Below, piece by piece: positions 1 to 10,324 of a stretch of DNA of 52,176 nt (the stretch's first letter is position 1; every line of letters begins with the position of its first letter). The notes under the pieces were generated by a model, which was given only the letters and a program-made list of their open reading frames with translations, did no database searches and had not been told where the DNA came from. Made by a program: the position numbers and the translations under genes. The DNA is taken from assembly GCF_016888165.1 (NCBI RefSeq), contig NZ_JACSWC010000220.1, positions 1-52,176 on the forward strand, read 5' to 3'. Origin of the DNA: Halomicronema sp. CCY15110. GTDB taxonomy: Bacteria; Cyanobacteriota; Cyanobacteriia; Phormidesmidales; Phormidesmidaceae.

Positions 1-113
1 GTTCTCGAAAGTGACGACTTTCTCACGATGAGACTACCGATACTTTGCTCCCAAAACTTTTCTGCACCAGTGAGCAAGATGGCCTCAGAAATCATCCTTA
101 GGAGCATAGTGAT

Positions 114-2042
114 GTGGAGCTGACTGCCCTTCAAACAGCTAATATCGCCACCGCGATCGCTTATCTCATTATTCCTTTTTGTCTAGTTTATTGGCTGTGG
201 AGACTCCGCCGATATCAACTACCCTGGCAGCTTTTTGCTCATTTGGGACTATTTTCAGCCTTTATTTTGAGTTGTGCCCTGACCCATCTTTTAGGGCATA
301 ACTCTCCCGCGATTTATCCTTGCGCTGTGATTAGTGGCCTCGAAGCCATTGCCCTGATCGTGAGTACCCGTGGGCTAGCCGATCACTTCATCGGCCAACT
401 GCGAGCTCAGCGCCTACTGCAAGGCTTTTTAGACAATGCGCAGATCGGCATGATGGCGTTTGATGCGGTGCGAGATAGCGAAACCAACGAAATTGTCGAT
501 TTCCGCTGCACCCTCGAAAATGACTACGCTCGGCGGCATGGCTCCCCTGAACCGATGACTGGCAGGCTACTCATTCAGGCCATGCCGCACCATCTAGAGA
601 GTGGCCTGTTTGAGCAATATTGCCGCAGCACCCAGGGCGAAAATATCACCGCAGAATTTTCCTACCCAGAGCTGGGCTGGTTTCAAAATCGCTCATTTCC
701 ACTCCTCCAGGGGTTTGGGGTGACGTTTGCTAATATCACCACCCTTAAAAATGCGGCCATTTTTGATCGGTTAACCGGACTCTATAATCGCCAGATCTTA
801 GATCAGCCTCTCAAGTTCAACGCTCTGTTGTACTTGGATCTTGATCGCTTTAAACAAGTGAATGATCTCCAAGGCCATATCGTCGGCGATGAGGTGCTGA
901 GACAGGTCGCAGATCGCCTTCGACACAGTACTCGCCCCAAAGATCTCCTGGTTCGATTAGGGGGAGATGAGTTTTTAGTTTTGATGGCCATTGCCGATGC
1001 GGCTCCCCAAGAGATTGCGCTAGAAACGGCCTGGCGCATTCACGATGCCATCCAAAAACCCTATTCGGTAGATGAGTTGATTCTGAATGTCGGGGTCTCG
1101 GTGGGCGTTTATCTGGCCATCAAAAACGACTCCTTAGACAGTGCGATTCGTCTGGCCGATATTGCCCTGAACACGCGCAAAGCTGATCGGGAAAAATATT
1201 CCCCAGTGGTCTTGTATGAGCCGGAAATGGGAGAGCGGGCCCAGCGGGGATATGTGTTTGAAAAGGAGCTGAAGCAGGCGATCATCGACGGACAAATTGT
1301 GTTGTTCTATCAGCGGGTCGTTAATTTGCAAGAGCCGAGTCATCCGACTGTGGGGTTTGAAGCCCTGGTGCGGTGGCAACATCCCGAGAAAGGACTAATT
1401 CTGCCGCAGGATTTTATCCCCATGGCTGAAAAATCCGGCCTCATCGGGCTCATCACAGATTATGTCTTGGCTGAGGCCTATCGGCAGGCTTGTGTCTGGA
1501 ACCGCTTTGATCAATCGATGAAAATGAGCATCAATCTTAGTGCCTACGACTTAACTAGGTCTGAGTTTCTCAAGCATGCCCAAAAGGTTCTGCAGCAAGG
1601 CATTCTGAAGAACAACTCTTTTGGGTTTGAACTCACGGAAAAGGATTTTGCCGATTTATCGCAAGCGGCTGTGCTCAACATGATTAAGACTTTGAAGTCG
1701 TTTGGGGCAGGCTGGGCCATTGATGACGCGGGCACTGGCTATAACGGTCTCGGTGTGGTCAGTCAGGTTGGGGGTCTATTTGATGTGCTCAAAATTGACC
1801 GGAGTTTCATTTCTGGACCGCAAGCCTCGCTGCTGTTATGCGACGCCTTTTGTGCGATCGCCAATCACTTTGGCATGGAGGTGATTGCTGAGGGCATTGA
1901 GACCCAGTACCAAGCTCAGGCTCTGACGAAGTCAGGCGTGCAGTTTGGCCAGGGCTTTTACTTTGAGCACGGCGAGCCCCTCGCAGCAGCAGCAATGGAA
2001 GCGGTATTGGAAGCAGAGTGGAGTCACGCGCGCACCGAGTAA
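114..2042 (+). CDS. Membrane ethylene-receptor-like sensor fused to PAS-GGDEF-EAL (c-di-GMP turnover)
   Basis: Predicted bifunctional cyclic-di-GMP synthase/phosphodiesterase anchored in the membrane. Three hydrophobic helices fill residues 10-90 and resemble the ethylene-binding domain of plant ETR1: Tyr17, Pro21, Ile51, Cys54 and His58 match ETR1 Tyr32, Pro36, Ile62, Cys65 and His69, while Asn10 replaces Asp25. A PAS-like region follows (about 100-210). The GGDEF domain has an intact GGDEF near residue 284 preceded by an RPKD inhibitory-site motif. The EAL domain (about 390-630) keeps EAL near 416, NLS, ELTE, DD and AEGIE motifs, so both activities could be live, although the usual DDFGTG is DDAGTG. 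The GTG start at 114 is chosen because TAGGAG lies 9 bases upstream. The gene is convergent with ribE. Family assignment is firm; ligand (ethylene/Cu) is inference. Confidence 0.93.
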   Translation: MELTALQTANIATAIAYLIIPFCLVYWLWRLRRYQLPWQLFAHLGLFSAFILSCALTHLLGHNSPAIYPCAVISGLEAIALIVSTRGLADHFIGQLRAQRLLQGFLDNAQIGMMAFDAVRDSETNEIVDFRCTLENDYARRHGSPEPMTGRLLIQAMPHHLESGLFEQYCRSTQGENITAEFSYPELGWFQNRSFPLLQGFGVTFANITTLKNAAIFDRLTGLYNRQILDQPLKFNALLYLDLDRFKQVNDLQGHIVGDEVLRQVADRLRHSTRPKDLLVRLGGDEFLVLMAIADAAPQEIALETAWRIHDAIQKPYSVDELILNVGVSVGVYLAIKNDSLDSAIRLADIALNTRKADREKYSPVVLYEPEMGERAQRGYVFEKELKQAIIDGQIVLFYQRVVNLQEPSHPTVGFEALVRWQHPEKGLILPQDFIPMAEKSGLIGLITDYVLAEAYRQACVWNRFDQSMKMSINLSAYDLTRSEFLKHAQKVLQQGILKNNSFGFELTEKDFADLSQAAVLNMIKTLKSFGAGWAIDDAGTGYNGLGVVSQVGGLFDVLKIDRSFISGPQASLLLCDAFCAIANHFGMEVIAEGIETQYQAQALTKSGVQFGQGFYFEHGEPLAAAAMEAVLEAEWSHARTE

Positions 2043-8626: not shown

Positions 8627-10018
8627 TTAATTGACGGAGGATAACGATTCTTCTAACCAGACTTTGGGAAGCTGGCTAGGACGTTCAGGCAGTTGCATCA
8701 TGCCAATTTCGGTCAAACGCACAATCGTTGACAAATGTTCTAGCAGCGTGGGATCAAACCGGGTGCCACTGTGCTGGAGACATTTGTCTAGTGCATCACT
8801 TAGCGACAGAGCCGGGCGATCGCCCCGCGACTGAGTCAGTTCTTGAAAGTGGGCCGCCAACCGCAAGGTGCGAGATTCTAACGGAATCGACTCGCCGCGC
8901 AAACCATCGGGCCGACCACTGCCATCCCAGTTTTCCAGCTGGTGGCTGACGATGAGTCGCACGGGCTCTAACTCGGCCATGGCCCCGAGCAGCTGCCCTC
9001 CCAAGTAGGCCCGATTATTCCAAGTCACCAATTCTGACTCGCGGAGTTGGCTGGCAGGCTGCTTAAACACTTCTATGGGCGCTTCGGCCAACCCAATACG
9101 GAATAGTAACCCGGCCAATCGCAGTCGGCGCAGGCGAATAGTCGGCAAATCCAAAATTTGTCCGAGGGTTTCAGCCAAAGCCGCCACTTGCAAAGAAGCG
9201 AGGGGATTATCTTGGTCACGCTCGTCGACTCGCTGGGCCATACGCAAAAAGGCTTGCAGCTTGTTAGCCGTCATGTTGCGGTTGACTCGCAGGGCATGGC
9301 CTTCCAGTTCCCACAGCTCTTGGGCTTGACGGCTGGCCGTGATGAGATGCTCCTGGCTGTCTTGCAAATAGTTCACAATGCGCGACACGACGCTCGTTAA
9401 ATCGATAGGGATGGAGTCGGGGGTCGTGCTCATCTGCTGCTGCAAAGCCGTCAGGCGATCAGCCAGTGCCGCATCATACGGACGCATCCGTTCCACCAAG
9501 ATGGCAGCCGCTGCTTCAACGGCGACTCGGTCAAAGGTCCACAGCCCATAAAATTTGCGCTCAACATCGCTGCGGGGTTGGGTATCGGCTTGATACTCCT
9601 CGGGCGACAACTCGTGGCAGAGGACCATGGCGGTGTAACCAGGGGCCACGATAATCAGATTCCACTCGTGAACCAGGCTGTCATCGAGAGATAACTCAAC
9701 CATTGACACGTTATCTAGCTGACCCGTGGGGTGATTTTCCAGGCCACTGTCGGCACAGGCGGCGATCGCCACCGCGGCCGAACTTTGGGCAATACTCAGA
9801 TAGCGATCGGCCTCCTGCATGTACCACTTCCCTTGCTGGAAAGTCACTAGTACCAAAGGTTCTTGCCCAGTATGTTGAGCCGTACTTTTGAGAATGTGAT
9901 CTTCTAAAGCATGACAGAGCGCAATCAGCGTGTTTTTAAAGTAGACGCGATAGCTAGAGGGCAACTGCCCGGACGGGAGCGCCGCTTTGAGTTGGTTAAG
10001 CGTTGAATTCGAATCCAT
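8627..10018 (-). CDS. DICT sensory domain plus degenerate HD-GYP output domain
   Basis: The N-terminal 200 residues look like the DICT sensory domain associated with diguanylate cyclases and two-component systems in cyanobacteria (TFQQGKWYMQEADRYLSIA; IIVAPGYTAMVLCHEL). From about residue 250 there is an HD-GYP-like helical domain, but the metal-binding HD pair is gone (AGLLFRIGLA where HDIGK would be expected) and the GYP segment reads NWDGSGRPDGLRGESIP. It is therefore unlikely to hydrolyse c-di-GMP and may bind it or signal through protein contacts. ATG 10018 (MDSNSTLNQL) is preferred to an upstream in-frame start at 10072. First gene of the probable operon with the pentapeptide and DUF4079-like genes. 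Confidence 0.85.
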   Translation of the reverse strand: MDSNSTLNQLKAALPSGQLPSSYRVYFKNTLIALCHALEDHILKSTAQHTGQEPLVLVTFQQGKWYMQEADRYLSIAQSSAAVAIAACADSGLENHPTGQLDNVSMVELSLDDSLVHEWNLIIVAPGYTAMVLCHELSPEEYQADTQPRSDVERKFYGLWTFDRVAVEAAAAILVERMRPYDAALADRLTALQQQMSTTPDSIPIDLTSVVSRIVNYLQDSQEHLITASRQAQELWELEGHALRVNRNMTANKLQAFLRMAQRVDERDQDNPLASLQVAALAETLGQILDLPTIRLRRLRLAGLLFRIGLAEAPIEVFKQPASQLRESELVTWNNRAYLGGQLLGAMAELEPVRLIVSHQLENWDGSGRPDGLRGESIPLESRTLRLAAHFQELTQSRGDRPALSLSDALDKCLQHSGTRFDPTLLEHLSTIVRLTEIGMMQLPERPSQLPKVWLEESLSSVN

Positions 10019-10324
10019 CCTAGTTGCGGCTACGACCCCAAATGTCATTAATAACTTCTCGCATGATTTCACTCATCAATCATGCAAGCGCACTTCGTTT
10101 ATCTTACTGGAAAGGCGTTAACCGACATGGCAAAAACCGTCAAACTCAGCCTCGACGCAACAACGAGCCCTCACAATGCGGCATTACTGGATTAGGAAAT
10201 TGGCGATTTAACGAGCTGCACCAGTACCCGCCGCCCTTGCAACGGGCGAGAGCACCCGCTTCTTACCACTTTTTTCGAGGGGGAAGAGTTCATGCCGTCG
10301 GTCCACCAGGTCTTAGGCCACTGC

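Follow-up and report, generated by a model that had tools for sequence, protein, structure and literature searches.

A gene at the start of a contig from the cyanobacterium Halomicronema sp. CCY15110 (contig NZ_JACSWC010000220.1) encodes a protein whose sequence confirms the fusion of a sensor distantly related to that of plant ethylene receptors with a putative c-di-GMP enzyme. The stretch of DNA that we analysed, hereafter the window, is 52 176 nucleotides long and starts at base 1 of the contig. Our preferred reading, to which we give about an even chance, is that the protein is an ETR1-derived Cu(I) membrane sensor, reduced or changed in its ligand affinity, that would control a c-di-GMP enzyme. 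Where ETR1_N is paired with GGDEF or EAL domains, a single protein would suffice for a gas or copper to set the level of a second messenger. The first-pass annotation had described the product as an ethylene-receptor-like sensor on a GGDEF–EAL protein. That description stands with regard to the ETR1-type helices 1 and 2, the Cys and His ligands and the intact GGDEF–EAL part, but its ethylene-sensing aspect is weakened by Asn at the Asp25 position, by the absence of the helix-3 Lys and by a third helix that is unmatched in the family.

Gene and domain organization

The coding region (positions 114–2042, plus strand) has a GTG start and specifies 642 amino acids, arranged as an ETR1_N-type membrane sensor, a PAS-like linker, a GGDEF domain and an EAL domain. 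A likely ribosome-binding site, AGGAG (100–104, plus strand), was read by eye 9 nt before the GTG, and a scan for promoters and terminators returned nothing above chance. A wrong frame or a truncated N-terminus was considered and rejected, as the open frame is only four codons longer upstream (646 versus 642 residues). The ETR1-like three-helix membrane domain (residues 1–100; 114–413, plus strand) was delimited by Pfam, AlphaFold2 and hydropathy, and the PAS-like linker (residues 101–210; 414–743, plus strand) by its identity to cyanobacterial proteins: among the matches listed for a query of residues 1–220, it is 27–41% identical to stretches of many such proteins. Residues 101–209 matched no Pfam family at E 0.001 or better. 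The GGDEF domain (residues 215–359; 756–1190, plus strand; Pfam 112 bits) and the EAL domain (residues 384–618; 1263–1967, plus strand; Pfam 178 bits) were further supported by alignment with the PDB entries 4rnh, a ‘Motility regulator’, and 5m3c.

In that alignment the GGDEF motif (residues 283–287) and the I-site RPKD (RxxD, residues 274–277) are intact. The EAL motif occupies residues 416–418, and E416 and the SINLS, ELTE, DD, KID, AEG and QG segments, which represent the established catalytic residues of EAL domains, likewise align with both structures. Loop 6 of EAL domains has the consensus DDFGTGYSS. The window protein reads DDAGTGYNG at this loop, and differs from the two structures in this respect and in its sensor; the departure from the consensus might weaken c-di-GMP breakdown. 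The five NCBIfam models that fit best all describe phosphodiesterases and score far below their own cut-offs, and on this account we lean towards net c-di-GMP breakdown as the predicted output.

Relationship of the sensor to the ETR1 family

The likeness to ETR1 proposed in the first-pass annotation was borne out by an HMM search, in which Pfam ETR1_N (PF25487) matched with an E value of 5.6e-9 and a score of 36.6 bits (cut-off 27), over residues 8–62 only (profile positions 8–58 of 97). The sensor scored 34.8 bits against an HMM made from AtETR1 and the rows of 82 other domains, a seed that excluded both the window protein and its orthologue, compared with 13.5 bits for the best local shuffle (4996 scored of 5000 made). 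Comparison of the sensor with the family by hhalign gave a probability of 98.5% and an E value of 3.7e-15 over residues 8–76, and the ETR1_N family model found matches in none of 14 control genomes. A chance match is rejected by the shuffles, by hhalign and by the control genomes. Homology of helices 1 and 2 to the ETR1-type domain is demonstrated by these sequence comparisons, and we regard descent of the sensor from the ETR1 family as very nearly certain.

An AlphaFold2 model built with 57 of the 67 non-redundant family rows as input contains three helices (residues 2–31, 38–63 and 68–102; mean pLDDT 83.9, pTM 0.62), and together with hydropathy it indicates three N-terminal transmembrane helices, as in ETR1-type domains. 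The sequence RLRR lies between helices 1 and 2, and no cluster of that kind lies between helices 2 and 3, a charge pattern that would fit an N-terminus outside and an enzyme inside. Searches of the PDB found nothing significant for the protein by sequence and nothing at E ≤ 0.001 for the model by fold. To our knowledge, no structure of an ETR1 membrane domain has been solved.

With the family members SynEtr1, AzoEtr1 and GeiEtr1/2 the window protein shares its three N-terminal helices, the pattern Y, I-P, I, C-x3-H in helices 1 and 2, and the Cys and His ligands. It differs from them in its unmatched helix 3, in an output that is GGDEF–EAL and not a histidine kinase, and in the absence of all four of Asp25, Lys91, the Cys before helix 1 and the loop that reads IWTLWHP in the family consensus. 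The N-terminal Cys is described as a possible dimer disulfide in part of PMC6682694. Four ETR1_N proteins are encoded in the genome, three scoring 132–137 bits and that of the window 35; the other three begin with YIPHGHCYLW, which is also absent from the window protein. In the family tree a very long branch leads to the sensor, more than four changes per column from the nearest other row, and this length also fits drift to another function.

Ethylene-binding residues kept and lost

Ethylene binding in ETR1 depends on seven residues, D25, Y32, I35, P36, I62, C65 and H69. In alignment with AtETR1, Asn10, Tyr17, Ile20 and Pro21 fall on D25, Y32, I35 and P36, and Ile51, Cys54 and His58 fall on I62, C65 and H69. 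Six of the seven are present in the window sensor, the exception being Asn in place of Asp25, and Tyr17, Pro21, Ile51, Cys54, His58 and the Asn at the Asp25 position all lie where the first-pass annotation had put them. Asn10 (141–143), Cys54 (273–275) and His58 (285–287; all plus strand), the last two at the copper-ligand positions Cys65 and His69, were placed by alignment, and these three, with Tyr17, Pro21 and Ile51, are conserved in the single orthologue identified (locus L006 of genome G170). The annotation had also held that loss of the Cys and His in close homologues would speak against the relationship; the pair is retained in G170, the one close homologue available for examination, and does not vary in a chosen set of 57 family rows that were aligned to the window sensor.

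Lys91 of helix 3 is said to bridge to Asp25. Helix 3 of the window protein contains no Lys, and Glu77 (342–344, plus strand) is the sole charged residue between 67 and 85. The equivalent of Lys91 depends on the register, being Glu77 by spacing from the His, Ala78 by the SG motif and Ser74 in other alignments. Gapless helix-3 scores are negative in every register tried, and the family models do not match this helix. Glu77 is kept in the orthologue, as are four further sensor residues, Cys23, His43, His62 and Cys70.

Seven residues are described as required for binding in the parts of PMC6682694 and PMC11819568 on which we draw, and PMC11819568 names D25, C65 and H69. In the same part of PMC11819568, mutation of D25 abolishes ethylene binding by ETR1, and the D35A mutant of AzoEtr1 behaves as non-functional.

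Asn25 and Lys91 across the family

The family was surveyed in a non-random sample of 185 aligned rows, which represent 178 distinct cores once seven repeated ones are merged. It comprises 30 loci from a phylum-wide ETR1_N search (from the matches listed, with the weak end missing), 17 loci from an order-level search with residues 1–102, four matches from the genome itself plus the G170 orthologue, 45 of the 51 matches that scored below 125 bits (of the other six, five were short or broken and one was the orthologue already in the sample), 14 further chosen matches, with seven duplicates dropped, and 81 rows from the best 80 of at least 195 relatives in named genomes. All seven binding residues occur in 128 of the 178 distinct domains. 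C65 and H69 are both kept in 154 and at least one of them is lost in 24, which indicates that family members can outlive copper binding. Four loci (L097, L101, L103 and L106) have Gly or Arg for the copper-ligand Cys and Ala for Lys91; their ORFs, of about 1150 aa, carry an H-box and a PAS-like stretch related to the linker of the window protein.

Position 25 is Asp in 154 and Asn in 14 of the 178 distinct domains, and in nine of the 178, the window and its orthologue included, Asn25 is found with the other six residues kept. A residue other than Lys stands at position 91 in 12 of the 14 Asn25 domains, again including the window and orthologue, for which this holds in every register, versus 13 of the 154 Asp25 domains (raw Fisher p 5.7e-10, kinship not removed). 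Acidic residues at position 91 appear only alongside Asn25, in the window, the orthologue, L114 and L127, with the register unsure for the window pair and L127 below the Pfam cut-off. A quick tree was made from 168 rows with columns 25 and 91 left out, and 79 of its 165 inner branches are unresolved. The fewest changes it requires are 11 at position 25 and 10 at position 91. Only three supported independent pairs could be drawn from it, and the sign test on them was null (median p 1); on average, Lys loss went the same way in 1.1 pairs and the other way in 0.0, with no difference in 1.9.

These patterns could tentatively be taken to mark out an ‘Asn class’ among the ETR1-type sensors: the Asp25–Lys91 bridge would have been dismantled and the copper sensor retuned in ligand or affinity, and here such a sensor would be tied directly to c-di-GMP. 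The window protein offers a natural test of whether the Asp25–Lys91 pair is needed for sensing. The same genome contains a second, different Asn variant: a paralogue (L003; C302:28645–28932, minus strand; 132 bits), part of a long ORF that also has an H-box like that of histidine kinases, carries Asn at the Asp25 position and Arg at the Lys91 position.

Distribution, selection and genomic context

With residues 1–220 as query, 77 of 386 genomes of the phylum gave some match, and among the matches listed full-length ones came only from the genome itself and from G170, a member of the same genus (85% identity). Residues 1–102 matched in 13 of 63 genomes of the order, with high identity in these same two only, and the protein is present in two of six genomes of the genus. 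For its GGDEF–EAL part, identity is 85% in G170, compared with 33–40% for the other matches listed (194 genomes, E ≤ 1e-60). A first scan of named genomes for close relatives matched 53 stretches, none of which was confirmed; a second matched at least 587 stretches, of which at least 195 encode relatives, and none of the best 80 that were kept is close (top segment identity 52%). Cyanobacteria make up most of the named relatives of the domain, and by eye one ORF of G170 resembles a phycobilisome linker.

The sensors of the window protein and the orthologue are 84% identical. Values of dN/dS for this single pair, calculated with a Nei–Gojobori script, are 0.118 for the sensor, 0.081 for the PAS-like region, 0.065 for GGDEF and 0.092 for EAL. 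The first of these values places the sensor under purifying selection, and the substitution pattern between the two genes demonstrates that selection keeps it, on conservation evidence that is thin because it comes from one orthologue.

Neighbouring genes were also considered. ribE was found in seven of the eight relatives searched, and in all seven it is adjoined by genes for a bifunctional nuclease and an aldo/keto reductase. The window gene lies beside ribE in none of seven short loci and none of five longer stretches from relatives. This absence concerns the place next to ribE; the remainder of those genomes is addressed by the phylum and order searches above. As these three genes are conserved without the window gene beside them, they are uninformative about the signal. 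None of the neighbours scanned points to ethylene or copper, and there is no copper gene among the seven checked by Pfam. Approximately 6.6 kb from the window gene is a gene for a DICT–CHASE6_C–HD_5 protein (8627–10072, minus strand), in which the HD motif reads FR by eye and which may be an inactive HD-GYP-type protein.

Candidate ligands and mechanism

In the reading to which we gave an even chance, a homodimer would hold Cu(I) through Cys54 and His58, with both the dimer and its copper loading presumed. The small ligand might be ethylene, with lowered affinity, or some other gas or olefin that binds Cu(I), or else copper itself. Its binding would shift helix 3, and this shift would pass through the PAS-like linker to alter the balance between synthesis by GGDEF and breakdown by EAL, changing local c-di-GMP in a direction that we infer; motility or biofilm formation might be affected in turn. 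That the sensor binds Cu(I) appears somewhat probable, the odds being lowered because PMC12643061, in the part used here, counts Asp25 in the ETR1 copper site together with Cys65 and His69. Ethylene as the physiological ligand seems doubtful.

An ordinary ethylene receptor, in which ethylene on Cu(I) would directly set c-di-GMP, is possible and in our estimate rather improbable. The retention of six of the seven binding residues speaks for such a receptor, and the finding of Asn25 beside the other six in nine domains shows Asn to be a naturally recurring state. A D25N receptor is reported to work, at lower affinity, and Asn variants are reported to occur in bacteria (Azhar et al. 2023, PNAS). 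According to part of PMC6682694, ethylene is bound by cyanobacteria that possess such domains and elicits responses in them. Counting against the proposal are the abolition of binding in ETR1 mutated at D25 (PMC11819568, in the part used here), the missing Lys91 and the unmatched helix 3, and ethylene could be sensed instead by the three strong ETR1_N proteins of the same genome.

The Cys and His ligands are kept while residues tied to ethylene have changed, as might be expected if ethylene binding had been lost and the domain simply sensed Cu(I), redox or the state of the membrane through Cys54 and His58 together with Cys23, His43, His62 and Cys70. We consider this unlikely: the four extra residues are all kept in the orthologue, but this is conservation in one relative only, 84% identical in the sensor, and the neighbours checked by Pfam offer no copper gene. 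It is distinctly unlikely that the three helices are a mere membrane anchor or dimeriser and that sensing is really done by the PAS-like linker. Such a role would suit a helix 3 that is no longer recognizable and a PAS-like region common to many cyanobacterial proteins; however, a plain anchor need not retain Cys-x3-His, and the low dN/dS of the sensor and the retention of six binding residues with Asn10 and Glu77 in the orthologue argue against it.

Other ETR1_N–GGDEF proteins

The architecture is not unique to the window gene. ETR1_N is found in 90 of 386 genomes of the phylum, above the cut-off in 88. A phmmer search with the GGDEF domain of the window protein identified GGDEF-bearing ORFs for at least 20 of the 178 distinct domains (the window and orthologue included), 13 of them with a fully canonical sensor; these counts are lower bounds, since many ORFs are cut by the end of the locus and GGDEF-bearing L222 was collapsed into the shortened L055. 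Nine of the 20 rows were submitted to Pfam, with L242 standing for L049, and all nine contain ETR1_N and GGDEF, six of them also EAL. The six are L242 (700–2481), from a genome of the window's family and with the same core as L191 of Leptolyngbya sp. SIO4C1; L200 of Nostoc sp. LEGE 12450; L209 of Okeania sp. SIO2C9; and three from metagenome-assembled genomes (MAGs), L190 (Gallionellaceae), L163 (Pseudomonadota) and L150 (Methylovulum). Like the window protein they have the order sensor, PAS or other domain, GGDEF and EAL; unlike it, they have full DYIPICH...K sensors that score 122–146 bits in Pfam. The GGDEF–EAL part of the window protein is 28–32% identical to these six, compared with 35–37% to four generic proteins with no ETR1_N match, and from this lower identity its fusion to the sensor looks to have arisen separately. 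The 13 canonical GGDEF-bearing members would be better candidates than the window protein for direct ethylene-to-c-di-GMP signalling, which is plausible biology at the level of the family, with the window gene as a deviant case.

A search of the literature pairing ethylene with GGDEF, EAL or c-di-GMP found, among the matches listed, no study of an ETR1_N–GGDEF or ETR1_N–EAL protein. Bacterial ETR1 homologues with a wide range of output domains, some not present in plants, are mentioned in part of PMC7700396, and the outputs of SynEtr1, AzoEtr1 and GeiEtr1/2 are kinases in the parts of PMC11819568 and PMC6682694 cited here. In Komagataeibacter, ethylene raises the production of cellulose, a c-di-GMP-activated process, and no ethylene receptor had been reported there, according to the portion of PMC4686702 that we use.

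Two minimal ETR1_N–GGDEF proteins, of 311 and 357 aa, are encoded at L107 (173–1105, minus strand) and L104 (217–1287, minus strand). Both have all seven binding residues and Lys91, and ETR1_N and GGDEF are the only domains found in them. They offer clean candidates for a diguanylate cyclase under the control of ethylene or copper and, being small and canonical, look like easy test cases. The Gallionellaceae protein (L190; 3536–6082, plus strand) has the order ETR1_N–PAS–GGDEF–EAL followed by a C-terminal CZB zinc-binding domain, and in this way one c-di-GMP enzyme combines a sensor of the copper type with a domain of the zinc type.
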